Shown: positions 1,532 to 45,758 of the stretch, piece after piece | Layout of the letters: the number at the start of each line of letters is the position of its first letter | Numbering within the stretch: the stretch's first letter is position 1 | Source of the DNA: Arthrobacter caoxuetaonis | Lineage (GTDB): Bacteria > Actinomycetota > Actinomycetes > Actinomycetales > Micrococcaceae | Assembly: GCF_023921125.1 (NCBI RefSeq) | Contig: NZ_CP099466.1 | Span: 930,001 to 994,000 of the forward strand | Direction of reading: 5' to 3' | DNA: 64,000 bases | Program-made: the position numbers and the translations under genes | The notes under the pieces: generated by a model | Database searches by the model: none | Seen by the model: only the letters and a program-made list of their open reading frames with translations | Told to the model about the DNA's origin: nothing

Positions 1532-2323
1532 TCAGTTCGGGGTGACGTACGCGCCGGAGATGCCGCCGTCGACCATAAAGGTGGAGGCCGTGATGAAGGA
1601 GGAGTCGTCGCTGGCGAGGAACGCCACAGCGCCGGCCAGTTCCTCCGGCTCGGCGAAGCGGCCCAGCGGTATGTGCACCAACCGGCGGGCAGCCCGCTCC
1701 GGATCCCTGGCGAACAGTTCCTGCAGCAGGGGAGTGTTCACCGGTCCGGGGCACAGGGCGTTGACCCGCACCCCCTGCCGCGCGAATTCGACGCCGAGTT
1801 CCCGGCTCATCGCCAGCACTCCGCCCTTGGAAGCGCTGTAGGAAATCTGTGAGGTAGCCGCGCCCATGACCGCCACGAAGGATGCCGTGTTGATGATGGA
1901 GCCCTTGCCCGCTTCCAGCATGTGCGGCAGGGCGTACTTGCAGCAGTAGAAGACAGAGGTCAGGTTGACCTCCTGCACTTTCCGCCACGCGTCGATTCCG
2001 GTGTCGAGGATCGAGGCGTCGTCCGGCGGGGAGATCCCGGCGTTGTTGAAGGCAATGTCCACCCGGCCGTGGGTCTCCCGGGTGATCGCGTAGAGGCGCT
2101 TGACGTCTTCTTCATTGGTGACGTCCACCGGAACGAACAGGCCTCCCACCTCATCGGCGGCAGCTTTCCCGGCGACCGGATCGATGTCCGCGACGACGAC
2201 GTGTGCGCCTTCGGCTGCCAGCCGGCGGGCGCTGGCGAGGCCAATCCCGCTGCCGCCCCCGGTGATGACGGCAGAACGTCCTTCGAGCCGGCGAGGGGGT
2301 GTGGATGAGACCGGATCCAGCAT
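1532..2323 (-). CDS. SDR-family NAD(P)-dependent alcohol dehydrogenase/oxidoreductase
   Basis: A 263-residue classical short-chain dehydrogenase. The cofactor motif GGGSGIG is at about residues 22-28, NNAG at about 92, and the catalytic YSASK at about 160, with the usual upstream Ser. An acidic residue after beta-2 (VVADID) suggests NAD rather than NADP. The ATG has a strong ribosome site (GGAGGAAACACC). It is the last gene of a run with aldehyde dehydrogenase, hydrolase, glutamine synthetase homologue and permease, 20 bp after the dehydrogenase. In this context I infer that it oxidises the hydroxyl of a gamma-glutamylated amino alcohol to the aldehyde. SDR specificity cannot be read from motifs; annotation pipelines would probably call it a 3-oxoacyl-ACP reductase-like protein. 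Confidence 0.85.
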   Translation of the reverse strand: MLDPVSSTPPRRLEGRSAVITGGGSGIGLASARRLAAEGAHVVVADIDPVAGKAAADEVGGLFVPVDVTNEEDVKRLYAITRETHGRVDIAFNNAGISPPDDASILDTGIDAWRKVQEVNLTSVFYCCKYALPHMLEAGKGSIINTASFVAVMGAATSQISYSASKGGVLAMSRELGVEFARQGVRVNALCPGPVNTPLLQELFARDPERAARRLVHIPLGRFAEPEELAGAVAFLASDDSSFITASTFMVDGGISGAYVTPN

Positions 2324-2343
2324 GGTGTTTCCTCCTTTGGCCG

Positions 2344-3699
2344 CTACCGGCCCGTCGCGATAAAGACGTTTTTGGTTTCCGTGAACGCATCCAGGGCGTC
2401 CGGGCCCAGTTCCCGGCCGAGCCCTGACTGCTTGAAGCCGCCAAACGGCGTCCAGTAGCGCACCGACGAGTGCGAGTTCACGGAGAGGTTTCCCGCCTCC
2501 ACCGCGCGGGCAGTCCGCAGGGCCCGGCCCAGGTCCCGGGTCCAGATGGATCCGGACAGCCCGTAGGCGGAGTCATTGGCGATGCGGACAGCGTCCTCCT
2601 CGTCCCGGAAGGGAACGACGGCGAGCACGGGGCCGAAGATCTCCTCCCGGAGGGCCCGGCTGTCCGGGGCAGGGGCGAGCACGGTAGGCGGGAACCAGAA
2701 TCCGGGGCCGGCCGGCGCCTTGCCCTGGAACACGACGTCGTCCTCCGCCACGTACCCGGCGACCCGGTCCCGCTGCGCTGCAGAAATCAGGGGACCCATG
2801 GCAGTATCCGCCTGCCGCGGATCGCCCACGGACAGCCCCGTGACATGGGGCTCGAGAAGCTCAAGGAAACGTTCGTACACCCCCTGCTGGACCAGGATCC
2901 TTGAACGGGCGCAGCAGTCCTGCCCGGCATTGTCGAACGCCCCGCCGGGGGCGGCGGCTGCTGCGGACTCGAGGTCGGCGTCGTCGTAGATGATGTTGGC
3001 GCTTTTGCCGCCCAGTTCCAGGGTGACCCGCTTCAGCTGCGCGGAGCACCCGGCCATGATTCCCCGGCCCACCTCGGTGGACCCGGTAAACACCACCTTG
3101 CGCACCGCTGGATGGGTCACAAAGCGCTCGCCGATGACCGATCCCTTGCCCGGAAGGACTTGGAATACGCCCTCGGGAAGGCCGGCCTCCAGTGCCAGCT
3201 CGGCCAGCCGCAGGGCCGTGAGCGGGGTCAGTTCGGCCGGTTTGAGGACCACGGTGTTGCCGGCAGCCAGCGCCGGAGCGAATCCCCAGCCCGCGATGGG
3301 CATGGGGAAGTTCCACGGCACGATTACTCCCACCACACCGAGGGGTTCATGGAAGGTGACATCGATGCCGCCGTCCACGGGAATCTGCGCGCCGGTGTGT
3401 CTCTCCGGGGCGCCGGCGTAGTAGTTCAGCACGTCCCGGACGTTGCCCGCTTCCCAGCGGGCGTTGGCCAGGGTATGCCCCGCGTTCGCCACTTCCAGGG
3501 CGGCGAGGTTTTCCACGTCGGCGTCCACGGCAGCGGCGAAGCGCCGCAGGAGCCGGGCGCGGTCTGAGGGGCCGGTGGCGCGCCAGGACACGAACGCCCG
3601 TGCGGCGGCCTCAATGGCGGCATCGGTTTCTGCCAGCCCCAGGGGAGCGACGGCGGTGATGACCTCCTCCGTGGCGGGATTCAGGATGGTGGTGCTCAC
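2344..3699 (-). CDS. Aldehyde dehydrogenase (ALDH superfamily)
   Basis: A 451-residue NAD(P)-dependent aldehyde dehydrogenase that oxidises an aldehyde to the carboxylate. The fold signatures are in order: PWNFP near residue 125, the Glu general base in LELGGKSANI near 230, the catalytic Cys in GQDCCARS near 263, and EIFGPV near 360. The Cys-Cys pair is slightly unusual; the first Cys is the expected nucleophile. I chose the GTG at 3699 because AAGGAG lies 6 bases before it and it overlaps the upstream hydrolase stop as GTGA. A longer in-frame ATG at 3780 would run deep into that gene. The likely substrate is gamma-glutamyl-aminoacetaldehyde or a gamma-glutamyl-aminobutyraldehyde, inferred from neighbours. 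Confidence 0.9.
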   Translation of the reverse strand: MSTTILNPATEEVITAVAPLGLAETDAAIEAAARAFVSWRATGPSDRARLLRRFAAAVDADVENLAALEVANAGHTLANARWEAGNVRDVLNYYAGAPERHTGAQIPVDGGIDVTFHEPLGVVGVIVPWNFPMPIAGWGFAPALAAGNTVVLKPAELTPLTALRLAELALEAGLPEGVFQVLPGKGSVIGERFVTHPAVRKVVFTGSTEVGRGIMAGCSAQLKRVTLELGGKSANIIYDDADLESAAAAAPGGAFDNAGQDCCARSRILVQQGVYERFLELLEPHVTGLSVGDPRQADTAMGPLISAAQRDRVAGYVAEDDVVFQGKAPAGPGFWFPPTVLAPAPDSRALREEIFGPVLAVVPFRDEEDAVRIANDSAYGLSGSIWTRDLGRALRTARAVEAGNLSVNSHSSVRYWTPFGGFKQSGLGRELGPDALDAFTETKNVFIATGR

Positions 3700-4517
3700 C
3701 GGCGTGCTCCTTGCGCAACAGGTGTCCGCATTGGGGTGCTGTCCCCGGTCCCGTCCTTTGCGGCGCGCCGTCTGGCGCACTCGGCCACGAACCCTTCGAA
3801 CAGCCGCAGGTCTTCCGGGTTCTGTTCGGGATGGAACTGCACGCCCAGGACCCAGTCCCGTCCCGGCAGTTCGACCGCCTCCACCGTCCCCTCGGGCGCT
3901 TCCGCGGTGATCCGCAGTCCGTGGCCGAGCTCGGCGATGCCCTGATGGTGGTAACAGGGGGCGCTCGCGGCCGGTCCCAGCAGGGACCGGATGATGCTGT
4001 CCGGCGCAGTGCTGAAAGTGACGTCGGCAAAGATCCCCGGCGTGGCCTGGTAGTCGACCTCCGGGCGGACGTCCGGCAGGTGCTGGATGAGTGTTCCGCC
4101 CAGGGCGACGTTCAAGATCTGCGCTCCCCGGCAGATGGCGAACAGGGGGAGGTCCCGATCCAGGGCAGCTTGGGTCAGGGCGAAGTCGTGGGAGTCCCGC
4201 AGCGGCTGGCTGACGGTTTTGGGGTGCGGGTCATGGCCGTAGGCAGCCGGGTCCACGTCGGTGCCGCCGGAGGTGACCAGACCGTCGAGCCCGTCCAGGA
4301 CGGCTGTCTCGGTTCCCAGCGGCGGAAGGAGGACCGGGCTGCCGCCCGCCGCGGTGACCGCCTCAACGTAGGTGCCCGGGACCAGTGCCGCACTGCCTTT
4401 CCATACTCCCCAGGCAGCCTGCTGGTAGTAGGTGGTGATGCCGATCAGCGGGCGCCTCGAAGCTGTACTTCGCAAGGCCGGGCGCTCGCCGCCGGGCTCA
4501 GAGCCGTTCAAAGCCAC
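3696..4517 (-). CDS. Gamma-glutamyl amide hydrolase, class I glutamine amidotransferase-like (PuuD family)
   Basis: A peptidase C26 / class I glutamine-amidotransferase-like hydrolase of about 273 residues. It cleaves gamma-glutamyl amides such as gamma-glutamyl-GABA, releasing glutamate. The nucleophile Cys is in FAICRGAQ, the acid/base pair is His and Glu in GVQFHPEQ, and the PuuD-type GGTDVDPAAYG and YHHQGI segments are present. The start is uncertain. GTG at 4517, preceded by GGGAG, overlaps the end of the glutamine synthetase homologue by 20 bases; a TTG at 4475 is the alternative. The very long frame reaching 4757 is a shadow of the upstream gene. It ends in a 4-base GTGA overlap with the aldehyde dehydrogenase, so the genes are translationally coupled. 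I infer it finishes the pathway by removing glutamate from the oxidised product. Confidence 0.85.
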   Translation of the reverse strand: MALNGSEPGGERPALRSTASRRPLIGITTYYQQAAWGVWKGSAALVPGTYVEAVTAAGGSPVLLPPLGTETAVLDGLDGLVTSGGTDVDPAAYGHDPHPKTVSQPLRDSHDFALTQAALDRDLPLFAICRGAQILNVALGGTLIQHLPDVRPEVDYQATPGIFADVTFSTAPDSIIRSLLGPAASAPCYHHQGIAELGHGLRITAEAPEGTVEAVELPGRDWVLGVQFHPEQNPEDLRLFEGFVAECARRRAAKDGTGDSTPMRTPVAQGARR

Positions 4518-5865
4518 GCTTGCGCTCCCAATCGGTGACGGCTCCGTCAAAGGCGGCCAGTTCGACGTCGGCCGCGTGAACGTAGTGGGTGACGACCTCG
4601 TCGCCGAAGGCCTTGCGGGCAATCTCGCTGCCCGCCAGCAGGTCCCGGGACGCCCGCAGGGTGGTGGGCAGCCGGTCGGCACCGGTGGTGTAGGCATTGC
4701 CTGCCGTGACCGGCTCCAGCGGCAGCCGGTTCTCCAGGCCGTGGATAGCCGCGGCAACCAGGGCAGCGGTCGCCAGGTAAGGGTTCAGGTCACCGCCGCC
4801 AACCCGGTTTTCGGTACGCATTCCGGCACCGTGCCCGACGACGCGGAGGGCGCAGCTGCGGTTGTCCAGGCCCCAGGCGATCGCCGTCGGCGCGAAGCTG
4901 CCTTCCACGAACCGCTTGTAGGAGTTCACGTTCGGTGCCAGGAAATAGGTGAGTTCCTTCAGCGCTGCCAGCTGGCCGGCGATGAACTGCTCCATGACCG
5001 GGCTGAAGCCGTGTTCGCTCATCCCCGGGAACACCGGTTCGCCGTCCAGGTCCCGGAGGCTGAAGTGGATGTGGCAGGAATTGCCTTCGCGTTCGTTGAA
5101 CTTCGCCATGAAGGTCAGGCTCTTGCCCTGCTGGTCGGCGATCTCCTTGGCTCCGGTCTTGTAGAAGGAGTGGTTGTCGCAGGTCCGCATCGCCTCGTCG
5201 AACCGGAACGTCACCTCCTGCTGGCCGAAGTTGCACTCGCCCTTGGAGGACTCCACCACCATCCCGGCACCTTCCATTCCGTTGCGGATGGCGCGCAGGA
5301 CGGGCTCCAGCCGGGAGGTGGCCAGCAGCGAGTAGTCCACGTTGTACCTGCTGGAGGCCTGCATGCCGGCGTACCCCCGGTCCCAGGCATCCGAGTAGCT
5401 GTGGTCGAAGAGGATGAACTCCAACTCGGTGCCGATGTAGGCGCGGTAGCCCAGTTCTTCCAGCCGGTCCAGCTGCCGGCGCAGGATCTGCCGGGGCGAG
5501 GGAGCCAGCGGAGACCCGTCGGTGCGCAGGACGTCGCACTGCACCATGGCTGTCCCGGGCAGCCAGGGCACCAGCCGCAGGGTGTCCATGTCCGGGCGCA
5601 TGACCAGATCGCCGTAGCCGTTTTCCCAGGAGGATGATTCGTAGCCCTCGATCGTGTTCATGTCCACGTCCACGGCGAGCAGGTAGTTGCAGCCTTCGGC
5701 GCCGTGGGGATACACGTCCTCGAGGAAGGACCTTGCACCGCAGCGTTTGCCCTGAAGCCGGCCCAAATGGTCGGTGATGGCCACGATCACGGTGTCGATG
5801 CTGCCCGCCGCGACAAGGTCGCGCAGTTCTTCGAGAGCCAGTCCGTTGGGGGATTGCTGCTTCAT
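4498..5865 (-). CDS. Glutamine synthetase homologue, probable gamma-glutamyl-amine ligase (PuuA/GlnA4 type)
   Basis: A 455-residue member of the glutamine synthetase superfamily. It is expected to join glutamate to an amine at the cost of ATP. The metal-binding ExE motif GTELEF is near residue 145, EVTF near 230, the glutamate/ATP-site stretch CHIHFSL near 273, and the R-E-N-R and GGDLNPYL block near 350. The adenylylation-site loop of canonical GlnA is not evident. Setting with a hydrolase, two dehydrogenases and an amine permease argues for catabolic gamma-glutamylation, not ammonia assimilation. The ATG at 5865 is chosen, with GGAG upstream; a GTG three codons earlier is possible. Related Streptomyces enzymes act on polyamines (GlnA3) or ethanolamine (GlnA4). 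The permease type favours ethanolamine here. Confidence 0.87.
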   Translation of the reverse strand: MKQQSPNGLALEELRDLVAAGSIDTVIVAITDHLGRLQGKRCGARSFLEDVYPHGAEGCNYLLAVDVDMNTIEGYESSSWENGYGDLVMRPDMDTLRLVPWLPGTAMVQCDVLRTDGSPLAPSPRQILRRQLDRLEELGYRAYIGTELEFILFDHSYSDAWDRGYAGMQASSRYNVDYSLLATSRLEPVLRAIRNGMEGAGMVVESSKGECNFGQQEVTFRFDEAMRTCDNHSFYKTGAKEIADQQGKSLTFMAKFNEREGNSCHIHFSLRDLDGEPVFPGMSEHGFSPVMEQFIAGQLAALKELTYFLAPNVNSYKRFVEGSFAPTAIAWGLDNRSCALRVVGHGAGMRTENRVGGGDLNPYLATAALVAAAIHGLENRLPLEPVTAGNAYTTGADRLPTTLRASRDLLAGSEIARKAFGDEVVTHYVHAADVELAAFDGAVTDWERKRGFERL

Positions 5866-5897
5866 GCTTTCCACACTCCGAGGTCGTAGTACCGGTC

Positions 5898-7331
5898 TTA
5901 CCTGATTTCCGATTCCGCCTGGTCGATCTGCGCAAACTCTTCTTCGGGTGCGCTGGCTACCAGGTGGTGCCGGCTATAGAACCAGAAGTAGGCCAGCGCC
6001 GCCACGAAAATCCCTGCGGTAATCGAGGCAGCCAGGACATCCACCACGAAGGTGGCGATGACGGCTACCACTGCAAGGAAGAGGGCGACGCCGGTCGTGA
6101 ACGCACCGCCGGGGGTGCGGTATCCGCGCGGCAGATCCGGTTCGCGGCGCCTCAGCACGATGTGCGAGAGGTTCAGCAGCACGTAGGAGACCGTGGCGCC
6201 GAAGACCGCAATGTTGATCAGCAGGCCGCCGTCGCGGGTAAACGCGGCGAGCAGGAAGCCAATGGTGCCGGGGACGATCAGGGCCATGTACGGAGTGCGC
6301 CATTTGGTGGTCAGGGACAGCCACCGGGGCAGGTATCCCGCCCGGGAGAGGGCGAAGAGCTGCCGGGAGTAGGCGTAGACGATCGAGAAGAAACTGGCGA
6401 CCAGGCCGGCAAGGCCGGCGTAGTTCACGAAGTCGGCCAGGAGCGTGTTGCCGCCGTAGGCGATGCGCAGTGCTTCCGGCAGCGGGTTGTCCGAGGTACT
6501 CATGGCTTCGGCACCGGCAGCTCCGGGCACCAGCACCAGCATCAGGGCACCGAAGACGAGCAGGAGAGCCATCGCAGCAATGATTCCGCGGGGCATGTCC
6601 CTCTTGGGATCGGCCGTCTCCTCGGCCGCAAGGGGGACACCTTCAATGGCCAGGAAGAACCAGATGCCGTAGACCAGTGCCGCCAGGACACCGGCAATGC
6701 CCATCGGGAGGAAGGAACTGGCCCCCGCGGCGTTGGAGGGAACGATGTCGAACAGGTTTGCGGCGTCGAACTTCGGGACCAGTCCCACCACCGTGGCGAC
6801 AAGCGCGAGGACTGCGACGGCGGTGATGACGAACATGAGTTTCAGGGCTTCACCGACGCCGCGCAGGTGAATGCCGATGAAGAGGGCATAGGTGACCAGG
6901 TAGACCGGCCAGGAGTTGGTGAGGCCGAAGAGTCCCAGGGCTTCTATGTAGCCGCCAATGAAGGTGGCGATGGCTGCGGGGGCCACGGCGTACTCGATCA
7001 GCACGGCCATGCCGGTGGCGAAGCCGCCAAGGGGGCCCAGCGCCCTGCGCGCGAAGCCATAGCCTGCTCCGGCTGTGGGGAGGGTGGAGGACAGCTCCGC
7101 TAGGCCGAAGACCATACAGGTGTACATGACGCCCATGAGCACAAAGGCGATCAGCAGTCCGCCCCAGCCTCCCTGCGCCAGTCCGAGGTTCCAGCCGGAG
7201 AAGTCTCCGGAGATCACGTAGGCCACGCCCAGGCCTGCCAGCAGGATCCAGCCTGCTGCGCCGCGTTTGAGCTGCCGGTGGCTCATGTAGTTTGCGTCGA
7301 CCTTGGTGTAGTCGACCCGGGATTTAGCCAT
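5898..7331 (-). CDS. eat: APC-family permease, ethanolamine permease type
   Basis: A 477-residue integral membrane transporter of the amino acid-polyamine-organocation superfamily with about 12 hydrophobic segments. The N-terminal stretch around WILLAGLGVAYVISGDFSGW and the later YSRQLFALSRAGYLP block match my recollection of the ethanolamine permease subfamily (TIGR00908), which imports ethanolamine. The ATG at 7331 has a good ribosome site (AGAAGGA, 7 nt upstream); an earlier in-frame start near 7409 lacks support. It is the first gene of the minus-strand cluster, 32 bp before the glutamine synthetase homologue, and shares a 213-bp promoter region with the divergent FadR-type regulator. Subfamily assignment is from sequence memory, not a profile search. 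Confidence 0.8.
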   Translation of the reverse strand: MAKSRVDYTKVDANYMSHRQLKRGAAGWILLAGLGVAYVISGDFSGWNLGLAQGGWGGLLIAFVLMGVMYTCMVFGLAELSSTLPTAGAGYGFARRALGPLGGFATGMAVLIEYAVAPAAIATFIGGYIEALGLFGLTNSWPVYLVTYALFIGIHLRGVGEALKLMFVITAVAVLALVATVVGLVPKFDAANLFDIVPSNAAGASSFLPMGIAGVLAALVYGIWFFLAIEGVPLAAEETADPKRDMPRGIIAAMALLLVFGALMLVLVPGAAGAEAMSTSDNPLPEALRIAYGGNTLLADFVNYAGLAGLVASFFSIVYAYSRQLFALSRAGYLPRWLSLTTKWRTPYMALIVPGTIGFLLAAFTRDGGLLINIAVFGATVSYVLLNLSHIVLRRREPDLPRGYRTPGGAFTTGVALFLAVVAVIATFVVDVLAASITAGIFVAALAYFWFYSRHHLVASAPEEEFAQIDQAESEIR

Positions 7332-7419
7332 GCCGTTGTCCTTCTCGGAGAGGGGGCCGGATGAAACGCAGGAAGAGGTGGAAGCGCGCTGTGCAGGATG
7401 GAGATGCAAAGGAATTGCA

Positions 7420-7439
7420 ATGGACTAATTTCAGTCCAT
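7420..7439. promoter_or_regulatory. Inverted repeat, probable GntR/FadR-type operator
   Basis: A perfect 7-bp inverted repeat, ATGGACT-aatttc-AGTCCAT, lies in the region between the permease and the divergent FadR-type gene. Its size and position fit an operator for that regulator. A degenerate related sequence (TTGGTCTGATTCCAT, from 7507) lies nearer the regulator start. Confidence 0.55.
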
Positions 7440-7532
7440 AGAGAATGTGGGGCCAGTCTGCTGTCAGCTCGTATGTTCCGTCAAGGGCTTTGGCGAAGAT
7501 ATTTCATTGGTCTGATTCCATCCATTTGAGGC

Positions 7533-7538
7533 TACGCT
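7533..7538 (+). promoter_or_regulatory. -10 box (TACGCT) for the FadR-type gene, leaderless
   Basis: TACGCT ends 6 nt before the ATG at 7545 and no Shine-Dalgarno sequence is present. This is the geometry of an mRNA that starts at the start codon. Confidence 0.45.
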
Positions 7539-7544
7539 TGCTGC

Positions 7545-8261
7545 ATGAACGACCCCAGCTTCGCTTCGGCAGGTCTTGCGCCGCGGCCCGCACGCCGGCG
7601 GAATGCCTTCGAAGAGACCGTCGAACGGCTGCTGCAGGGACTCAAGCTGGGGATTTATGCTGCCGGCACGCGGCTGCCGCCCGAACGGGAACTCGCGGCG
7701 CAGCTGGGCGTTTCCCGGGCGACGCTGCGGGACGCGCTCGCGGAACTTCAGGGCGCAGGCTACCTGCAGTCACGCCGGGGCCGGTACGGGGGCACCTTCG
7801 CCGCTACGGTGCTGCCGGGCACGGCTGCCCTTTCACAGGACAGCGACGCCGCCGATGTCCAGGACGTGCTGCTGTTCCGCAGGGTGGTGGAACCGGCTGC
7901 TGCACGGTTGGCTGCGGAGGCGACGCTGACCGCGGCGGCCAGGGCCCACCTGCTCTCGGCGCTCGCTGAGGTGGATGAAGCGAACACTGACACGTTCCGG
8001 CCCAAGGACTCCAGGTTCCACATTGCCGTGGCCGAGCTTTCGGGATCCGCCCGGCTTGTGGCAGCCGTTGCGGATGTCCGGGCGCAGACCAGCGACCTGC
8101 TGGACCGGATTCCGCTGCTCCAGACCAACCTGGACCATTCCCAGGCCCAGCACCGCGAACTTGCCGAGGCGATCCTCAGGGGTGACGCAGACGCAGCCGA
8201 GGCTGCCGCCGTCGCCCACTTGGAGGGGACCGAACGCCTGCTCCGCGGCTTCCTCACCTAG
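7545..8261 (+). CDS. FadR/GntR-family transcriptional regulator
   Basis: A 238-residue regulator. The GntR winged helix is at residues 20-88 (RLPPERELAAQLGVSRATLRDAL), followed by an all-helical FCD ligand-binding domain from about residue 95. The metal/ligand-type residues of FCD are visible as FHIAVAELSGS and, later, QHRELAEAI. It is divergent from the ethanolamine-type cluster and probably represses it until a pathway intermediate binds. The start codon lies 6 nt downstream of TACGCT, so its mRNA is probably leaderless. Stop at 8259-8261. The effector is not inferable from sequence. Confidence 0.88.
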   Translation: MNDPSFASAGLAPRPARRRNAFEETVERLLQGLKLGIYAAGTRLPPERELAAQLGVSRATLRDALAELQGAGYLQSRRGRYGGTFAATVLPGTAALSQDSDAADVQDVLLFRRVVEPAAARLAAEATLTAAARAHLLSALAEVDEANTDTFRPKDSRFHIAVAELSGSARLVAAVADVRAQTSDLLDRIPLLQTNLDHSQAQHRELAEAILRGDADAAEAAAVAHLEGTERLLRGFLT

Positions 8262-8305: not shown

Positions 8306-9934
8306 CTAGTTCTCCCAGGGTGCCTTGATGGGGAAGTACTTTTCCAGGAAGTCCGTCACTCGGTCGGTGCGTTCTTCGGCGGAGACTTCGGGGAAGGAGC
8401 CGTCGTTCAGGCAGAACAGGTCCTTGTTCCGCTTGGCCAGGAGATGGTCCATGGACTTCAGGCCCCGGTAGGACGTGGTGTCCACGTATTTCACCTTGGC
8501 GGTTTCCTGCGTGACCGCCCGGCCGGTCAGCAGCGCGTAGTAGTGGTAGAGCGAGTTGGTGACGGAGATGTTGTCCTTGGCACGGAACCTGCTGGCGGCT
8601 GTGGCGGCGAACTCCTCCGGAAACACAGCTTCCATTTCCACCAGGACACTTTTGCGCAGCGGAGCCGCGGTGTGTTCGAGGTGGCGGGTGGTGACCCTGC
8701 CGAAACGCTCCCACAGCAGCCGCCGGTTGACCCGGGCGGCGTTTTCGAAGCCGCTGCGCTCGGGATCGTTGGCGCCCAGTCCGATTCGGGTGCTGGCCTC
8801 GATGAACTTGGTGATGCCGCCGGGGGAGAAGAAAAGGTCCGGTCCCACCGGGCGGCCGAAGAACATGTCGTCGTTGGAATACAGGAAGTGTTCGGAGAGT
8901 CCGGGGATGTGCTGGAGCTGGGACTCAACGGCCTGCGAGTTGAAGGTGGGCAGCACGGAGGGGTCGCGGAAATGCTCCACGGCCGGCACGAACGTGACGG
9001 AGGGATGATCGGCCAGCCAGTCCGGGCGCGGGGAATCCGAGGCGATGAAAATACGCCGGATCCAGGGCGCGAACATGTACACCGAGCGCAGGGCGTACTT
9101 CAGTTCATTGATCTGCCGGTAGCGGGCCTCGTGGTCGTCGCCCTCGCCGACGACGGCGTTCTCCATCAAGGCAGCGCGCCGGGCCCGGTATTCGGGGGAG
9201 CTGCCGTCCACCCAGGAGAAGACCAGGTCGACGTCGAAGCGGATGTCCGTGGCATGGTCGGCGAACATGTTCTCGATGGTCGGCCAGGTCAGGCCGTGCT
9301 TGTCCACGCTGCCGCGCACTACTTCGGAGGAGGGCAGGGTCCGGCGGGTCAGCGAGTTTTCCACCGGAAGGGTGATTTCCTTCTCGCCGAGTTCCCAGAG
9401 TTCCACCTGCACTCCGGCTGAAGGCCCGAAGACGAGGTTCGTCCCGCTGGTTCCGCGGGGGCGGAAGATGCGGAAGATGCGGGTCTTTTCGTGCTGGGAC
9501 AGGTCTCCGTCTGCGATAAGCAGTGTGCGGGATTTTTCGGTGTCCACACTGCGGGAATAGAACGGTTCGTCGCGGCATGCGTTGACCAGGGCACGGCGCA
9601 GCTCCTCCCGGAGCCTGACATCGACGGCGACGACGGGACGCTCGTCGTTGCCGCGCACCAGCAGGTAGTCAAGGCCCGCGTCCTCCAGGACCCGGCGCAG
9701 GAAGAGGAGGTCCTCGACCATGGCCTGGTGCGGAGTGAGGCCGGTGTCCATCAGGGTCAGCCGGCCCTTGATCTTGGTGACGTTGGGGCGGTGCTCCACC
9801 CGTTCAATGACAGCCAGCGACGCTGTCTGCAGGTCTTCGGCTTCGAGGCCTTCTTCCGGGGTGCCGAAGTAGACGTCGTGCTCGGCAGTGATGTCGGTAA
9901 TGGGAGCCTCCGAAGTGTCGTGCCGCGGGGGCAC
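8306..9934 (-). CDS. Stealth-family sugar-phosphate transferase
   Basis: A 542-residue Stealth protein, a family of hexose-1-phosphate or N-acetylglucosamine-1-phosphate transferases used for phosphate-linked cell-surface polysaccharides. The first 180 residues are a less conserved extension. Conserved region 1 is DLVFSWVDGSSPEY (about 240), region 2 spans about 275-390 and includes RYRQINELKYALRS and FLYSNDDMFFG, and region 4 ends in YFPIKAPWEN at the C terminus. The GTG at 9934 is the listed start; no strong ribosome site is visible, so the exact start is uncertain. No glycosyltransferase or capsule-export gene is adjacent, so it may modify teichoic-acid-like or other wall glycans. Acceptor unknown. 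Confidence 0.85.
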   Translation of the reverse strand: MPPRHDTSEAPITDITAEHDVYFGTPEEGLEAEDLQTASLAVIERVEHRPNVTKIKGRLTLMDTGLTPHQAMVEDLLFLRRVLEDAGLDYLLVRGNDERPVVAVDVRLREELRRALVNACRDEPFYSRSVDTEKSRTLLIADGDLSQHEKTRIFRIFRPRGTSGTNLVFGPSAGVQVELWELGEKEITLPVENSLTRRTLPSSEVVRGSVDKHGLTWPTIENMFADHATDIRFDVDLVFSWVDGSSPEYRARRAALMENAVVGEGDDHEARYRQINELKYALRSVYMFAPWIRRIFIASDSPRPDWLADHPSVTFVPAVEHFRDPSVLPTFNSQAVESQLQHIPGLSEHFLYSNDDMFFGRPVGPDLFFSPGGITKFIEASTRIGLGANDPERSGFENAARVNRRLLWERFGRVTTRHLEHTAAPLRKSVLVEMEAVFPEEFAATAASRFRAKDNISVTNSLYHYYALLTGRAVTQETAKVKYVDTTSYRGLKSMDHLLAKRNKDLFCLNDGSFPEVSAEERTDRVTDFLEKYFPIKAPWEN

Positions 9935-10095
9935 ACGTGAATGGTGGAAGCGTGCGGCGCTGCACGGTGTCCGGTTCCGGGCTGATGCCGGGCCGGTTGG
10001 GGCCGATCGGATGCCGGGAACCGCGGAAACTATGGGCGGTGTTGCCGGGGATGCGTAGCATTGACTGGAGCACGCGGAAACTTCCGGGAGCCGAT

Positions 10096-10737
10096 GTGAA
10101 ATACCGTAACACCCTGTTTGCGGCAGTAATAATGGCCGGGCTTACTCTGTCCTCCTGCGCAGTGCCCCAGGAGAGCGAGGAGGAGCCCGTGACGTGGCGC
10201 TGGTACGAAGTTGATGCCGCTTCCCTGGAGTTTGAGCACCGCTCTGACTGGGCGGTGGAAGAGATCGACCCGATCGCCAATGATCCTGCCGGGGGTGTGT
10301 CGCTGGAGGTGCGCGACGGCGGCGGGCGGCTGATCGCCGGGCTGGATACCGGCGTCATTACTGACCTGGTCTGCACTCCAACGGGGCAGCCTCCTGCCTA
10401 TGTCGAGTATGACGCCCAGCCGATGCCCGAACTCGAGTCGGCCGGCGGCACGGAGCAGCGTTTTGTATACCGGTCGGTGTCTCCTGCTCCGGGTGCCGGC
10501 GCACAGGTGACGTATGCGGTGGTCAGCGGGCCGGTTCCGACTCCCGAGGCAGTTGCCTGCGGGCTTTTTGATTACTTTGACCTGACGGAATCTAGCGGTG
10601 GGCGGTTCTCCGGGGCGGTGCATGCTGATGAGGGGTCCAGCGTTGAGCAGCACCTGCAGAAAGCCGCGGCTTTTGAAAATTCCCAGGAGTTCCGGGACGT
10701 GAAGCGGATGCTGGTTTCGCTGCGGAATACTGACTGA
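10096..10737 (+). CDS. Putative lipoprotein of unknown function
   Basis: A 213-residue exported protein. I place the start at GTG 10096 because GGGAG lies 5 nt upstream and the protein then begins with a lipoprotein signal (KYR, a hydrophobic run, and lipobox LSSC near residue 20). A longer frame from 9937 adds non-conserved sequence. The mature part has no domain I recognise; two Cys (near residues 95 and 155) could form a disulfide. It is divergent from the Stealth gene and followed by two more exported-protein genes. Likely anchored to the outer face of the membrane. Confidence 0.7.
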   Translation: MKYRNTLFAAVIMAGLTLSSCAVPQESEEEPVTWRWYEVDAASLEFEHRSDWAVEEIDPIANDPAGGVSLEVRDGGGRLIAGLDTGVITDLVCTPTGQPPAYVEYDAQPMPELESAGGTEQRFVYRSVSPAPGAGAQVTYAVVSGPVPTPEAVACGLFDYFDLTESSGGRFSGAVHADEGSSVEQHLQKAAAFENSQEFRDVKRMLVSLRNTD

Positions 10738-10824
10738 TCCGGCGGCACGGCTGACCGGGCATTTTCGAGTTTTCTTACCATTTCGGTGGCTTCCTGTGGA
10801 TAAGTCACTATGCTTTGCGGCAGT

Positions 10825-12411: not shown

Positions 12412-13263
12412 TCAGGCACCGGGCGGGTCTTGATGTTCAGGCCGCTGAGTCAGCCAGCAGGCAAATTGCCGGCCAGCCACCCCTGCCGGCGCTGGAACCG
12501 CAAAGAACGTCCGCGGGTCCTGAAGCAGCGCGGGATAAGAGAAGTCAGAACGCGTCACGCGTCCCGAGACGGAAACCTCCCGCCGGGCAGCATCATTGGT
12601 CAGGGTCGCCGGACCAACAGTGCCCAGCTCCAGCACTGACGGATCGGGGCCAAGCAAGGCCACCACATCGCCGTCGTCCGCCACATCCAGGAAGCGCTCC
12701 AGCTGCCGTCCGGCCTTGCCGGTCACCGGGGTTCCCCGGGCCGAAAGCATCGGCAACTCGATGGCCGGCCCCGAAGGCCCGCGGACCGGCCGGGCGACCC
12801 ACAACACGTTCCGCGTGGGTTCAGCCGGGAGCACCGGGGAGGCGGGCTCAGGCCAGACATACGGCAGCGCCCGCTCAGTATCGGGAAACAAAGGACCGTA
12901 AAAGTCATCGTCCTTGGCCAGCAGGTTCGACCGGTGGCTCTCGTGCAGGGCAGCATCTCCGAGCCACGGAGGCAGGGCAACATCGCCGCCGTCGGCCTCG
13001 GGAGCGAACTCCACCAGCTGCTTCCGGACCGTGTCGGCAAAGCCGCGGCCGGTCCAGGCATCCGTCATGGCCAGTCCGTAGGACGTCAAAGCCGGCACAT
13101 ACCCCATCCACATCCGCGTCACGGGATGGTTTTGCCAGCCGTAGTCGGGCACTGCCAGGGCCCGCAGGATCTGCAGGGCCTCCACCCGCTGTTTGCCCAG
13201 CCGCGGCGAATCCAGCACCTGGGCGCTGCGGGCGAAGCTCTCATAGGGGAGGAAAGTCTGCAT
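12412..13263 (-). CDS. MSMEG_6728-family protein (pyrimidine-dimer glycosylase-like N terminus)
   Basis: A 283-residue protein. The first 120 residues (MQTFLPYESFARSAQVLD, then RLGKQRVEALQIL and HPVTRMWMGY) match the MSMEG_6728 family, which is related to the Pyr_excise/pyrimidine dimer DNA glycosylase fold; a conserved positive patch here may contact DNA. The C-terminal half is poorly conserved and has no domain I know. It lies 27 bp downstream of the DUF1684 gene on the same strand, so they probably share a transcript. Enzymatic activity is not demonstrated for this branch to my knowledge. Confidence 0.72.
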   Translation of the reverse strand: MQTFLPYESFARSAQVLDSPRLGKQRVEALQILRALAVPDYGWQNHPVTRMWMGYVPALTSYGLAMTDAWTGRGFADTVRKQLVEFAPEADGGDVALPPWLGDAALHESHRSNLLAKDDDFYGPLFPDTERALPYVWPEPASPVLPAEPTRNVLWVARPVRGPSGPAIELPMLSARGTPVTGKAGRQLERFLDVADDGDVVALLGPDPSVLELGTVGPATLTNDAARREVSVSGRVTRSDFSYPALLQDPRTFFAVPAPAGVAGRQFACWLTQRPEHQDPPGA

Positions 13264-32920: not shown

Positions 32921-33823
32921 TTAGTTGAAGACGATGGTGCGGCGCCCGTCAAGCAGGACCCGGTGCTCAGCGTGCCACTGGACAGCCTTTGACAGGGTGC
33001 GTCCCTCCACCCCGGCACCGAGGGCGGCCAGCCGAGCCGCTGTCCGGGAGTGGTCCACGCGGATGACTTCCTGCTCGATGATCGGTCCCTCGTCCAGGTC
33101 CGAGGTCACATAGTGGGCGGTCGCCCCGATCAGTTTCACGCCCCGTGCGTGGGCCTGGTGGTACGGGCGCGCGCCTTTGAAGGAAGGAAGGAAGGAGTGG
33201 TGGATATTGATCGCCCGGCCGGAAAGCTCGCGGCACAGGCCGTCGCTGAGGATCTGCATGTACCGGGCCAGCACCACAAGCTCGATGTCCAGTTCCGACA
33301 TGAGGGCGCGCAGCGCCTCCTCAGCATCCTGCTTCGTGTCCGCGGTCACCGGGATGTGGTGGAAGGGCACGCCGTAGAACTCGGCCAGCCCGGCGAGGTC
33401 CGTGTGGTTGGAGACGATAGCCGGAATCTCGATCGGCAGGTTCCCGGCACGCTGCTGGAACAGCAGGTCATTGAGGCAGTGCCCGTCCTTTGAGGCCATG
33501 ATCAGCGTCCTCACCGGTACGCCGGCCTGATGCAGTTCGAAGTCCATGCCGAAGGCGTCTGCGACAGGCTCAATGCCGGCGCGGACAGACTCGTAGGTCT
33601 GCGGCGCCGTGAAGTCAACGCGCATAAAGAAGGAGCCGGAGTCCGGGCTGCCGTACTGCTGGGATTCGGTGATGTTGCCCTGGGCTGCTGCGAGGGCGCC
33701 GGAAACGGCATGCACGATTCCCGGACGGTCCGCACAGGAAAGCGTCAGGGTGAAGGAGGCTTCACCGGGTGTCGTGGCGGGCGGGTTGGATGCCGGGAAC
33801 CCGGCGGCTGCATGTTCGGTCAC
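32921..33823 (-). CDS. purU: Formyltetrahydrofolate deformylase
   Basis: A 300-residue enzyme that hydrolyses 10-formyl-THF to THF and formate, balancing one-carbon pools. An N-terminal ACT domain (residues 22-105; FTLTLSCADRPGIVHAVSGAL) senses amino acids such as Gly/Met in relatives. The C-terminal formyl-transferase fold has INIHHSFLPSFKGARPYHQA near 235 with catalytic Asn and His, and the Asp in DLDEGPIIEQ near 273. GTG 33823 lies 6 nt after TAACCT. It is divergent from the GNAT gene and 2 kb from glyA-folD. Confidence 0.95.
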   Translation of the reverse strand: MTEHAAAGFPASNPPATTPGEASFTLTLSCADRPGIVHAVSGALAAAQGNITESQQYGSPDSGSFFMRVDFTAPQTYESVRAGIEPVADAFGMDFELHQAGVPVRTLIMASKDGHCLNDLLFQQRAGNLPIEIPAIVSNHTDLAGLAEFYGVPFHHIPVTADTKQDAEEALRALMSELDIELVVLARYMQILSDGLCRELSGRAINIHHSFLPSFKGARPYHQAHARGVKLIGATAHYVTSDLDEGPIIEQEVIRVDHSRTAARLAALGAGVEGRTLSKAVQWHAEHRVLLDGRRTIVFN

Positions 33824-33829
33824 CCGAAC

Positions 33830-33835
33830 AGGTTA
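33830..33835 (-). promoter_or_regulatory. -10 box (TAACCT) for purU, leaderless
   Basis: TAACCT on the minus strand ends 6 nt before the GTG at 33823. Confidence 0.45.
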
Positions 33836-33855
33836 CCGCCCGCAGCGGGGAAGCC

Positions 33856-33861
33856 TAGGCT
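33856..33861 (+). promoter_or_regulatory. -10 box (TAGGCT) for the GNAT gene, leaderless
   Basis: TAGGCT ends 6 nt before the ATG at 33868. Confidence 0.45.
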
Positions 33862-33867
33862 GGAGCC

Positions 33868-34416
33868 ATGGACGTTACATTCGCCCCGCTCACCGACAAG
33901 GACGAGGAAGAGCTGGTCAAGTTCCTGACCACCAACCGTTTTCCCTTCCACCGGATAACGGCACCGTCAGAGGAACTGGTCCGAAGGCTGCTGCTGGAAG
34001 GCAGGTTCGAGTCCGACGGCGTGCGCACCTTCTGGGTTTTTGGCGGCAACCAGCGCCTGGGGCTGGTGATCCTGGAGGACCTGGCCGAAGAGTGCGCCGT
34101 CTTTGACCTGCGCCTGATCGAAGTGCACCGGGGAGAAGGCAAGGGAGTTCCCGTAGTCAAAGCGCTGACGGCCGAGGCTTTTACGCAGTACCCGCACCTG
34201 CGGCGGCTGGGAGGAAAGATGCGGGAAGACAACATCGCCATGCGCAAGACGCTCCTTCGCTCCGGGTTCGTCAAGGAAGCCCACATCCGCGAAGGGTGGC
34301 CGCTTCCCGACGGGAACCGCATCGCATCGGTGACCTACAGCAGGCTGCGCTCGGACTGGGAGGCCGGCACTGTCACCGGCTTCGTCTGGGAAGAGATCCC
34401 GGCCGGCACCGCCTGA
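33868..34416 (+). CDS. GNAT-family N-acetyltransferase-like protein
   Basis: A 182-residue protein with GNAT features: FWVFGGNQRLGLVILEDL as the central strands, RLIEVHRGEGKGVPVVKALTAEAF as the acetyl-CoA pyrophosphate loop region, and REDNIAMRKTLLRSGFVKEA as the C-terminal Asn-x-x-Ala/Met-x-x-x-hydrophobic block. This resembles RimL-type acetyltransferases. The R-x-x-G-x-G/A loop is degenerate (HRGEGKG), so acetyl-CoA binding is likely but not certain. Substrate unknown. Monocistronic; the ZTP riboswitch of glyA begins about 50 bp after its stop. Confidence 0.72.
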   Translation: MDVTFAPLTDKDEEELVKFLTTNRFPFHRITAPSEELVRRLLLEGRFESDGVRTFWVFGGNQRLGLVILEDLAEECAVFDLRLIEVHRGEGKGVPVVKALTAEAFTQYPHLRRLGGKMREDNIAMRKTLLRSGFVKEAHIREGWPLPDGNRIASVTYSRLRSDWEAGTVTGFVWEEIPAGTA

Positions 34417-34465
34417 CGCCGCAAGTCCCTGCGCACCCCTGCGCACCACGGCCCACGCTAGACTG

Positions 34466-34548
34466 GGGAGCGTCGCGACTGGCGTTGGGTGGGTAACCAC
34501 CAGGGAGCGGCACAAGCAAGTCCAACCACGGATCGCACGCCTGGGCCA
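34466..34548 (+). ncRNA. ZTP (pfl) riboswitch upstream of glyA
   Basis: The conserved parts of the pfl motif are present in order: GCGACTGGCG (34475-34484), GGGTAACCACCAGGGAGCG (34491-34509), a variable linker, and the 3' half CGCCTGGGC (34538-34546), which pairs back into the first domain. The pfl class senses ZTP/ZMP, which accumulate when 10-formyl-THF is short, and turns on folate and purine genes. Its position 92 bp before glyA fits. The expression platform is unclear: a CCCGG/CCGGG-rich stretch at 34575-34602 could form a terminator-like stem. Confidence 0.9.
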
Positions 34549-34640
34549 TGGTCACGTTGTCATCTGTTTGTCATGCCCGGAACCCGGGGGTGCCCGGCAG
34601 GTAGCCTGACCTATAGAACACCCTTCCCCAGGAGATCCAC

Positions 34641-35924
34641 GTGAGACTATCCACCCAGCCCGTCACCAATGCGCCCCTCTCCGAGGTAGACCCGGAGATT
34701 GCAGCCGTGCTCGACGGAGAACTGGCCCGCCAGCGCAACACGCTGGAAATGATCGCATCAGAGAACTTTGCCCCGCGCGCCGTCCTGGAAGCGCAGGGAT
34801 CCGTCCTCACCAACAAGTACGCCGAGGGTTATCCCGGACGCCGTTACTACGGCGGCTGTGAGCAGGTCGACGTGGCGGAAAACCTTGCGATCGAACGGGT
34901 CAAGGCCCTGTTCGGTGCTGAGTTCGCCAACGTCCAGCCGCACTCCGGCGCCCAGGCCAACGCAGCTGCACTGTCTGCGCTGATCAAGCCCGGAGACAAG
35001 ATCATGGGCCTGAATCTCGCCCACGGCGGGCACCTGACGCACGGCATGAAGCTGAACTTCTCCGGCAAGCTCTATGAGGTTGCCGCGTACGGCGTCGATG
35101 ACAAGACCTACCGGGTCGACATGGATAAGGTGCGGGAGCAGGCCCTTGCCGAGCGCCCGCAGGTCATCATTGCCGGCTGGTCCGCCTACCCGCGCCAGCT
35201 GGACTTCGCTGCCTTCCGCTCCATCGCCGACGAAGTCGGTGCCTACCTGTGGACCGACATGGCCCACTTCGCCGGCCTTGTCGCCGCCGGACTGCATCCG
35301 ACCCCCGTCCCGCATTCCGACGTCGTCACCTCCACCGTGCACAAGACCCTCGCCGGTCCGCGCTCGGGCGTGATCCTCGCCAAGGAAGAGTTCGGCAAGA
35401 AGATCAACTCCAGCGTGTTCCCGGGCCAGCAGGGCGGACCCCTGATGCACGTCATTGCAGCCAAGGCCGTGGCCTTCAAGGTTGCCGGTTCCGAGGAATT
35501 CCGCGAACGCCAGGAACGTGTCCTTGAGGGCGCCCGGATCGTCGCCGAACGCCTCAGCGCCCCGGACGTCGCCGAGCACGGAGTTTCGGTCCTGACCGGA
35601 GGCACGGACGTCCACCTGATCCTGGTGGACCTGCGCAATTCCGAACTGGACGGCAAGCAGGCCGAAGACCTGCTGCACTCCGTTGGCATCACGGTCAACC
35701 GCAACTCCATTCCGTTCGACCCCCGCCCGCCGATGGTCACCTCCGGCCTGCGGATCGGTACCCCGGCGCTGGCAACCCGCGGCTTCGGCGCAGCGGAGTT
35801 CACCGAGGTTGCGGACATCATTGCCACCGCGCTGAAGCCGGCACCGGACACCGAAGCGCTGTCCCGCCGCGTCTCGGCCCTGGCAGATAACTTCCCGCTC
35901 TACCCCGGACAGGAGCAGTGGTAA
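34641..35924 (+). CDS. glyA: Serine hydroxymethyltransferase
   Basis: A 427-residue PLP enzyme that interconverts serine and glycine, charging THF to 5,10-methylene-THF. Landmarks: [11 protein letters not shown] near residue 35, [15 protein letters not shown] near 58, and the PLP lysine in [13 protein letters not shown] near 235. GTG 34641 follows AGGAG by 7 nt. It is controlled by the ZTP riboswitch and followed within a few bases by folD, forming a one-carbon operon. Confidence 0.97.
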
Positions 35925-35926
35925 TC

Positions 35927-36883
35927 GTGGAAAAGGGTACAAATATGGAGGGCCCGGTGGAGGAAGAAACCACGCAGGCGCCGCAGACCGCCCGGAAGCT
36001 GGACGGGATCCAGGCGGCCAAGGACATCAAGGAAGAGCTTGCCCAGCGGATCCAGGTCCTGAAGGACGAGCACGGCATCACCCCGGGACTTGCCACCGTC
36101 CTGGTGGGAGACGACCCGGCGAGCCACTCCTATGTGGGCGGCAAGCACAAGGACTGCGCGCAGGTGGGAATCAATTCCATCCGCCGCGACCTGCCGGAGG
36201 ACATCACCCAGGAAGAGCTCGAGAAGGCCATCGACGAGCTGAACGAGGATCCGGCCGTCACGGGTTACATCGTGCAGCTGCCGCTGCCGAAGCACCTGGA
36301 CACCAACGCCATCCTGGAACGCATCGCTCCGGAGAAGGATGCCGACGGGCTGCATCCGGTGAACCTGGGCCGGCTGGTGCTCAACGTGTCCGACGCAATG
36401 ACGTCTCCGCTGCCCTGTACTCCGCACGGAATCGTGCAGCTGCTGGTCCGCAACGGGATCGCGCTGACCGGCAAGAACGTGCTGGTCATCGGACGCGGCG
36501 TGACCGTCGGCCGCCCGCTGGGACTGCTGCTCACCCGCCGGCCGATAAACGCTACGGTCACCCTGGCCCACACCGGCACGGTAAACCTGCCCGAACTCCT
36601 TGCCGAGGCCGACGTCGTTGTGGCCGCGGCCGGATTCCCGGGGATGGTCAAGGCCGCTGAACTGAAGCCCGGAGCGATTGTCCTGGACGTCGGCGTCACG
36701 CGGATCACCGATCCGGAAACCGGGAAGACCACGCTCAGCGGAGATGTCGAAAAGGATGCAGCCGCGGTGGCTTCCTGGATCTCGCCCAACCCCGGCGGCG
36801 TCGGGCCGATGACCCGGGCCATGCTGCTCGCCAACGTTGTTGAGGCAGCCGAACGCCGCGTGGGAATCCTGCCGGGCGCCTAA
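35927..36883 (+). CDS. folD: Methylene-THF dehydrogenase/methenyl-THF cyclohydrolase
   Basis: A bifunctional enzyme (about 318 residues) that converts 5,10-methylene-THF to 10-formyl-THF with NADP. The catalytic Lys is in [10 protein letters not shown] near residue 68, [12 protein letters not shown] near 160 is the P-C-T-P-x-G signature, and the Rossmann loop is [12 protein letters not shown] near 190. Start choices: GTG 35918 overlapping glyA, GTG 35927 (AGGAG 10 nt upstream) or ATG 35945 (AAGGG 7 nt upstream). I use 35927; the conserved domain starts later in all cases. The N-terminal 25 residues are a Glu/Thr-rich extension. Confidence 0.94.
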
Positions 36884-42615: not shown

Positions 42616-43143
42616 TCAGTCCCGGGAATCCAGGTCAGCCAGGACCGTACGGAACACCTGGGCAACGGGATCGCTGAACAGGACGAACTCCACGGTCTCG
42701 ATTCCGTTGCCGGGATGCTCCCTGACGGTCCGCAGCCCGATTTCTGCCACGTCACGGGCGTCCCAGCCATAGACACCCGCGCTGATGGCGGGGAACGCCA
42801 CACTCGACGCACCAAGCGAGACCGCCGTCTGGAGGCTGTTGGCGAACGCGGCCCGCAGCAGCTCCGGGTCGGTCTGCCCCGCCCGGGCGTTCGGGCCCAC
42901 AGTGTGGATGACCCAGCGCGCCGGTAATCCAAAGCCCTCGGTCGCGACGGCCTCGCCTACGGGCAGCCCGCCAGGGTAGGTTTCCTCGCGCAGCTTCCGG
43001 CACGCTTCCAGCAGTTCCGGGCCGGCGGCGCGGTGGATGGCGCCGTCGACTCCTCCTCCGCCCAAAAGCGAGGAATTAGCCGCGTTGACCACGGCTTGCA
43101 CGTTACGACGCGTAATGTCTCCGGTGACCAGCGCTATCTCCAT
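42616..43143 (-). CDS. Macrodomain protein, probable O-acetyl-ADP-ribose deacetylase
   Basis: A 175-residue single macrodomain (MacroD/YmdB type). ADP-ribose-binding landmarks are VTGDITRRNVQAVVNAAN at residues 6-23, LLGGGGVDGAIHRAAGP near 27-43, and the phosphate loop ISAGVYGWDA near 122. It would remove O-acetyl or ADP-ribosyl groups from proteins or nucleic acids. Converges on the GAP-family gene with 9 bp between stops. Longer upstream frames are shadows. Confidence 0.9.
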   Translation of the reverse strand: MEIALVTGDITRRNVQAVVNAANSSLLGGGGVDGAIHRAAGPELLEACRKLREETYPGGLPVGEAVATEGFGLPARWVIHTVGPNARAGQTDPELLRAAFANSLQTAVSLGASSVAFPAISAGVYGWDARDVAEIGLRTVREHPGNGIETVEFVLFSDPVAQVFRTVLADLDSRD

Positions 43144-43279
43144 CGCCCCAGCCTTCCAGCACGGACCGGTCCCGGGCAACAGCTCCCTGGAGGCATGCAC
43201 CCCGTTCCCCCGCGCGAGGGCGTTTTCGCCGTAGGGGTAAGCGGGCGGAGCACGCGGGAAAATTTGAGAGAATAATGCC

Positions 43280-43792
43280 ATGCAGTCCATCCGTAACGGC
43301 CAGACGCCGTCAGCATCCAGCCCCGGCAGGGGAATCAGCCGCAAGATGGCCACCATCGGCACCACAGTGATGGTGTTTGTGTTCATCGTTGCCGTCATCT
43401 TCGCTGCCAATGAGAACGACGTCGTTGGCTGGCTGGTGGTGATCATCTCCCTGGGGTGGCTGCTCCTGTTCGCCTTCGTGGTCTTCAGCATCCGCGGCGC
43501 CGCACGCAAGGCCGGTGCCAAGATCGCCGAAGCCCAGGACTCGCTGAACCGTGCCGCAGGCGGCGCGCCTTCAGTACAGGTGATGGACGAGGCCACGACC
43601 ATCCGCGACCAGAAGCTGGACCACAGCTTCAAGATCATCCAGGTCCAGTCCAAGGTGATCCGCGACAACCTCGGCAGTGATTCCGACCAAGTGGCACGCG
43701 CGCTCGAGACCATTGAAATCACCGCGCACAATGCCCGGGGAATGATGAAGAAGGACGACAGCGGCCCGGTAGAGGGCACCCTGGTCGACTGA
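43280..43792 (+). CDS. Small membrane protein of unknown function
   Basis: A 170-residue protein with two adjacent transmembrane segments (about 24-43 and 49-69) and a helical cytosolic tail of about 100 residues (QDSLNRAAGG, later HSFKIIQVQSKVIRDNLG) that may form a coiled coil. No domain recognised. It is transcribed toward xthA, 90 bp downstream. Confidence 0.68.
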   Translation: MQSIRNGQTPSASSPGRGISRKMATIGTTVMVFVFIVAVIFAANENDVVGWLVVIISLGWLLLFAFVVFSIRGAARKAGAKIAEAQDSLNRAAGGAPSVQVMDEATTIRDQKLDHSFKIIQVQSKVIRDNLGSDSDQVARALETIEITAHNARGMMKKDDSGPVEGTLVD

Positions 43793-43869
43793 TCCGCAGG
43801 CACGGAGCACCCGGTGCGCGCCTGTCCCAGGCGGCGCCGGCCCAGATGAACCCAGAGGCTACTGGAGGG

Positions 43870-43875
43870 TAAGGT
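43870..43875 (+). promoter_or_regulatory. -10 box (TAAGGT) for xthA, leaderless
   Basis: TAAGGT ends 7 nt before the GTG at 43883. Confidence 0.4.
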
Positions 43876-43882
43876 TATTGGC

Positions 43883-45758
<1,876 letters not shown>

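Follow-up and report, generated by a model that had tools for sequence, protein, structure and literature searches.

The stretch of DNA that we analyzed (the window, 64,000 nucleotides) covers positions 930001 to 994000 of contig 1 of the 3.93-Mb Arthrobacter caoxuetaonis genome. Between positions 1532 and 8261 it carries a six-gene cluster, which an earlier note had read as a route for ethanolamine use by gamma-glutamylation. Five genes lie on the minus strand and read, in order, permease, glutamine synthetase (GS) homologue, C26 hydrolase, aldehyde dehydrogenase (ALDH), and short-chain dehydrogenase/reductase (SDR). A gene for a GntR/FCD regulator diverges from them. All six genes listed in the note were confirmed.

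The permease gene (5898 to 7331, ATG start) is followed by the gene for the GS homologue, a putative gamma-glutamylethanolamide synthetase referred to here as the ligase (4498 to 5874 from a GTG, or to 5865 from an ATG). The hydrolase gene (3696 to approximately 4517) has no ATG start. Its candidate starts are at 4517, 4511, and 4475, and the first two overlap the end of the ligase gene. The ALDH gene (2344 to 3699) begins with a GTG that shares the sequence GTGA with the stop codon of the hydrolase gene, and the SDR gene (1532 to 2323) is last. The ALDH/hydrolase overlap and the possible hydrolase/ligase overlap suggest that the five genes form one transcript. On the plus strand, the regulator gene occupies 7545 to 8261, and the gap between it and the permease gene carries a 20-bp palindrome, ATGGACTGAAATTAGTCCAT (7420 to 7439, minus-strand reading), upstream of the permease. 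A catalase gene adjoins the SDR gene, and a Stealth-type protein (CR1-CR4) is encoded on the other flank (8306 to 9934).

The permease, an APC family protein, scored 520.5 bits against the ethanolamine permease model TIGR00908, which is above the equivalog cutoff (381.75). Of the 13 genome proteins that matched this model, no other exceeded that cutoff, and so the comparison proposed in the note supports its assignment. The ligase belongs to the PF00120 family (318.5 bits) and falls below the cutoffs of the NCBIfam models for GlnA, type III GS, and gamma-glutamylputrescine synthetase (221.4 bits against TIGR00653, cutoff 429.15; 223.8 bits against TIGR03105, cutoff 469.6; and 180 bits against the gamma-glutamylputrescine synthetase model, cutoff 650). 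Its active site has the marks of GlnA4, with Phe in place of the flap Glu327 (F327) and Glu in place of Asn264 (E263). Both replacements also occur in all three aligned Streptomyces sequences. The genome encodes three GS family proteins, and the other two retain the flap Glu. The nearest named relatives of the ligase are from Arthrobacter (A. gengyunqii, 89% identity), and the closest solved structures are Chromohalobacter salexigens Csal_0679 (5dm3) and 11zs, at 40 to 47% identity. A structure model had a mean predicted local distance difference test score of 78.4, with values below 50 at residues 1 to 7, 63 to 87, 257 to 266, and 449 to 458. Because this confidence is modest, we drew no conclusion from the model about substrate fit.

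The SDR scored 494.7 bits against NF004713 (cutoff 404) and has the motifs GGGSGIG at residue 22 and YSASKG at residue 162. That model and the public relatives of the protein carry the name 3-oxoacyl-ACP reductase. The genomic context suggests instead that it is a gamma-glutamylethanolamide dehydrogenase and that the public name is misleading. A search of the available literature found no paper linking PRK06057 with ethanolamine. The ALDH, a predicted gamma-glutamylacetaldehyde dehydrogenase, matched PF00171 (530 bits) and showed general similarity, with subcutoff scores, to the models for aminobutyraldehyde dehydrogenase and PuuC. The PuuD-like hydrolase, a predicted gamma-glutamylglycine amidohydrolase, matched PF07722 (194 bits) and has the ICRGAQ region. 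The regulator, a predicted repressor, has the domains PF00392 and PF07729.

This gene set resembles the glnA4 cluster of Streptomyces (SCO1610 to SCO1615), which has an SDR, an ALDH, a GlnA4-type ligase, an amidotransferase/hydrolase, and a divergent EpuRI-type regulator. To locate counterparts, we searched the genome collection with the sequence of a published primer for Streptomyces coelicolor glnA4, which matched 25 stretches. Sixteen bear a ligase and an ALDH; 15 are titled Streptomyces and one "Actinobacteria bacterium OV320." The other nine were taken as chance matches because they have none of the six genes at an E value of ≤1e-10. In a stretch of S. coelicoflavus, each of the six primers that we tested (for SCO1612, SCO1613, and SCO1614) matched with zero or one mismatch, and both SCO1613 primers matched its ligase gene with none. 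Therefore, this copy stands in for SCO1613 in our ligase comparison. Identity to the S. coelicoflavus proteins was 77% over 252 amino acids for the SDR (the SCO1611 counterpart), 68% over 450 for the ALDH (SCO1612), 61% over 447 for the ligase, 51% over 235 for the regulator (EpuRI), and 41% for the hydrolase (SCO1615). No permease was found in the S. coelicoflavus stretch.

We also searched 59 genomes (our own, 28 others of the genus, and 30 from beyond it) for the ligase at an E value of ≤1e-100. It was present in 13: our own, 7 of the 28 in the genus (8 of 29 with our own included), and 5 of the 30 beyond. Regions were fetched for all 12 other carriers, and every one has the GS homologue, ALDH, SDR, and hydrolase together, which argues that the grouping is not due to chance. 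The six-gene order of the window is kept in all seven other carriers of the genus. In one of them (L056), the reading frames of several cluster genes are interrupted, through either sequencing error or decay. Of the five carriers outside the genus, three showed the regulator next to the ligase, and one showed a permease related to that of the window (67% identical and truncated where the stretch ends). A broader, class-wide sample had the ligase at an E value of ≤1e-150 in 132 of 296 genomes, indicating that the GlnA4 route is not peculiar to Streptomyces. The best 30 class-wide loci, our own included, were viewed with approximately 1.5 kb of flank, which hides many neighbors; within that span, the ALDH was found in 30, the hydrolase in 19, the regulator in 14, a permease match in 14, and the SDR in 8.

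The palindrome before the permease is a predicted operator of the regulator. With up to three mismatches allowed, the window has a single site (0.00 expected from shuffles of the window), and so does the genome as a whole, where a reversed-pattern control gave zero matches. A copy with up to two mismatches precedes the permease gene in all eight ligase-bearing genomes of the genus. At up to one mismatch it occurs in 6 of the 59 genomes, each time solely before the permease, and two-mismatch copies occur in 6 further genomes, one of them (G005) beside a relic hydrolase. With three mismatches allowed, 38 of the 59 genomes matched, and we treat this level as background because the reversed control also matched in many. 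Since these genomes were the source of the pattern, finding it in them is partly built in, and the informative result is its absence elsewhere. It is not shared by 15 regulator-ligase gaps (14 from Streptomyces and one from OV320), where the best matches had 7 to 9 mismatches of 18.

The flanking genes give some history. The catalase gene was seen beside the cluster in five of the seven other carriers of the genus and the Stealth gene in all seven. (In L050 and L051, the catalase gene was not seen in more than 1.1 kb past the SDR gene.) All 21 ligase-less members of the genus have both flanking genes in the fetched 4.6-kb locus, at most approximately 1.5 kb apart. We searched these 21 loci with the six proteins, and 8 of them also at the DNA level, and found operon relics in three (L117, L118, and L101). 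L117 and L118 have a lone C26 hydrolase gene between the catalase and Stealth-type genes, and its product is 74 to 76% identical to that of the window. In L117, it is preceded by a two-mismatch palindrome copy and by sequence resembling the beginning of the permease gene, and an unreadable stretch hides the fate of the regulator. L101 retains 57 bp of the SDR gene and 32 bp of the regulator gene. Three further ligase-less loci have a distant hydrolase gene (35 to 38% identity) in the gap. This pattern fits an operon that occupied one site early in the history of the genus and was lost more than once. Alternatively, some lineages may have gained it. Separately, 9 of the 21 ligase-less genomes have a Stealth homologue with one TAG inside the matched stretch.

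We conclude that the locus is, in all likelihood, the Arthrobacter orthologue of the GlnA4 ethanolamine utilization cluster. Orthology with the glnA4 cluster makes the route claimed in the note the best reading, under an EpuRI-type repressor. The permease would import ethanolamine, and the ligase would couple it to glutamate using ATP. The SDR would then oxidize gamma-glutamylethanolamide to gamma-glutamylacetaldehyde, and the ALDH would convert this to gamma-glutamylglycine, from which the hydrolase would free glycine and recycle glutamate. The repressor would act at the palindrome before the permease, and ethanolamine or one of its products would lift the repression. Ethanolamine is the predicted substrate in this organism on sequence grounds, and the SDR, ALDH, and hydrolase steps are predictions both here and in S. 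coelicolor. The glycine formed would have ordinary outlets, since the genome encodes a glycine decarboxylase P-protein and the window encodes a serine hydroxymethyltransferase (34641 to 35924). The latter gene lies at 32921 to 36883 together with a gene that has formyltransferase and ACT domains and a folD-type gene, a one-carbon set that could use the glycine.

The pathway itself is an already published one. The passages of Krysenko et al. 2019 (PMC6529630) used here propose the same steps, by an SDR, an ALDH, and an amidohydrolase to glycine and glutamate, for the same gene set. They describe a Streptomyces cluster of a membrane protein, SDR, ALDH, glnA4, regulator, putative ethanolamine transporter, and glutamine amidotransferase. 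They show the ligase activity and the repressor role in S. coelicolor, also test a growth effect of one permease, and term the SDR, ALDH, and hydrolase steps predicted. A review repeats the Streptomyces pathway in the part consulted (PMC9397018). The claim in the note that the operon would extend the known system therefore fails, because a SDR, ALDH, transporter, amidotransferase, and divergent repressor had already been described there. What is new here is the 20-bp palindrome before the permease and the signs of a single genus site with loss. The passages on Arthrobacter that we saw in the ethanolamine and glutamylation literature do not describe the operon, which may have been described elsewhere. 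This compact, permease-containing version offers a system for settling the SDR, ALDH, and hydrolase steps.

Several observations weigh against the reading of the locus as a GlnA4 ethanolamine cluster. The ligases of the 16 primer-matched loci, which stand in for the characterized one, are just 60 to 63% identical to ours. The hydrolase is the least conserved part (41 to 47% in the 14 of these 16 loci that show one), and none of the 16 has a permease within its 8 kb. Consequently, permease-bearing Streptomyces clusters rest on the legend and passages of PMC6529630. The 14 permease matches among the best 30 class-wide loci are at least 71% identical in just five (our own included), 40 to 44% in eight, and 26% in one. 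The permease link is also not universal. L059 has an APC permease of a different family (9241 to 10770; TIGR00907-like, below the cutoff) directly before the regulator. In L058 (1284 to 6322), a more distant relative, the ligase gene comes after genes for a GntR/UTRA regulator, a urea transporter family protein, a protein that matches no Pfam family, a choline/ethanolamine kinase-like protein, and then an allantoate amidohydrolase-like protein; this neighborhood may feed the same route by another means of uptake or from another source. NCBIfam gives the ligase no amine ligase assignment. Finally, gel shifts with S. coelicolor EpuRI in PMC8998196 were positive for eight promoter regions, including those of glnA4 and epuRI, and the EpuRI-controlled genes are called mono- and polyamine associated. 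Because EpuRI also bound promoters of polyamine-associated genes, a regulator of this family does not point strictly to ethanolamine.

The hydrolase, and perhaps the whole operon, might handle a broader range of glutamylated amino alcohols or peptides, with the lone hydrolase kept after pathway loss for salvage of gamma-glutamyl peptides, but we consider this doubtful. It is also unlikely that the true substrate is not ethanolamine but a different small amino alcohol, such as alaninol, isopropanolamine, or 3-aminopropanol, or several such compounds. An SDR and an ALDH would suit any primary amino alcohol, and NCBIfam leaves the substrates of the GS homologue, SDR, and ALDH unfixed. However, the permease exceeds the ethanolamine permease cutoff, and the passages of PMC6529630 report the orthologous S. 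coelicolor ligase as specific for ethanolamine among the compounds tested. Furthermore, the best solved homologue, Csal_0679, is from a species with a predicted ethanolamine glutamylation route (cited there), and L058 has its choline/ethanolamine kinase-like gene two before the ligase.

A pathway for putrescine (Puu type) or another polyamine is very improbable. It would agree with the PuuD-like hydrolase and with an ALDH that resembles, below the cutoffs, aminobutyraldehyde dehydrogenase and PuuC. However, an SDR occupies the place of the oxidase, and the ligase is far under the gamma-glutamylputrescine synthetase cutoff, so we dropped this reading. As the note had stated, the cluster itself has no flavin adenine dinucleotide (FAD) amine oxidase, there being no DAO domain match within 1532 to 8261. 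Nor do the relatives leave room for one, since the gaps between neighboring ligase, hydrolase, ALDH, and SDR genes are ≤120 bp (match coordinates) in all 12. The note had also been correct in placing the route outside EutBC: EutB (PF06751) and EutC (PF05985) each had zero matches in the genome, and an Escherichia coli control was positive for both.

A further concern in the note was a coregulated amine oxidase elsewhere in the genome, which could in principle supply the missing putrescine step. Of the 46 matches to the FAD oxidase domain PF01266 in the genome, we scanned the matched stretches of the best 8 in search of a PuuB-like oxidase. One was an L-2-hydroxyglutarate oxidase (over the cutoff), one was glycerol-3-phosphate dehydrogenase-like (below the cutoff), and three had no model match at an E value of ≤1e-15. 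The remaining three (L005, L006, and L007, all outside the window) resemble the aminophosphonate oxidoreductase and pipecolate oxidase models, with 190 to 222 bits for the whole open frames against a cutoff of 632.8. L006 adjoins an aminobutyraldehyde dehydrogenase-like gene (below the cutoff) and L007 an aminotransferase gene (over the cutoff). The neighbor of L005 had no match at an E value of ≤1e-30, and L005 also has an ALDH-like stretch (43% over 259 amino acids). Judging by the neighbors of L006 and L007, these oxidases probably belong to separate amine catabolism. FAD oxidases of the right superfamily exist elsewhere in the genome, but without a second palindrome copy in the genome (≤3 mismatches) there is no sign of control shared with them, and other kinds of coregulation are possible.

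That the GS homologue is an ordinary ammonia-assimilating enzyme beside amine genes by chance can be practically discounted: it has PF00120 membership in its favor, and we dropped it in view of the subcutoff GS model scores, the Phe at the flap, the Glu for Asn264, the flap Glu in the other two GS family proteins, and the ALDH adjoining the ligase in all 30 best-scoring class-wide loci.

Two other genes in the window were recorded. The one at 12412 to 13263 encodes an N-terminal pyrimidine dimer DNA glycosylase domain (residues 1 to 79 of 283). At 42616 to 43947 is a gene for a 443-amino-acid protein whose sole Pfam match at an E value of ≤1e-5 is a macro domain (residues 287 to 403).

The E. 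coli Puu pathway glutamylates putrescine, oxidizes it, and then hydrolyzes the product. The Arthrobacter cluster shares its PuuD-like hydrolase, whereas an SDR replaces the FAD oxidase PuuB and the ligase scores far under the cutoff for gamma-glutamylputrescine synthetase. C. salexigens takes up ethanolamine by a TRAP transporter rather than an APC permease, and we take Csal_0679 to be part of its ethanolamine glutamylation route. That route was predicted by others, as cited in the passages of PMC6529630. A review lists ethanolamine among TRAP ligands, naming no species for it. According to the portion of PMC10132767 used here, growth of Phaeobacter sp. MED193 on phosphatidylethanolamine raises the ligase, the alcohol- and aldehyde-step enzymes, and a gamma-glutamylglycine amidohydrolase; that system has the TRAP transporter EtoVWX and an RpiR regulator, in contrast to the permease and GntR/FCD regulator here. 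The Streptomyces cluster is like ours in gene content, and several Streptomyces clusters also have a putative ethanolamine permease (passages of PMC6529630), but the layouts differ. Here the permease is first, and the ligase, hydrolase, ALDH, and SDR genes follow on one strand. The fetched Streptomyces loci have the regulator gene directly before the ligase gene and the hydrolase gene oppositely oriented, and the neighbor of the SDR gene is the orf1 membrane protein gene in the figure of PMC6529630, whereas it is the catalase gene in Arthrobacter.

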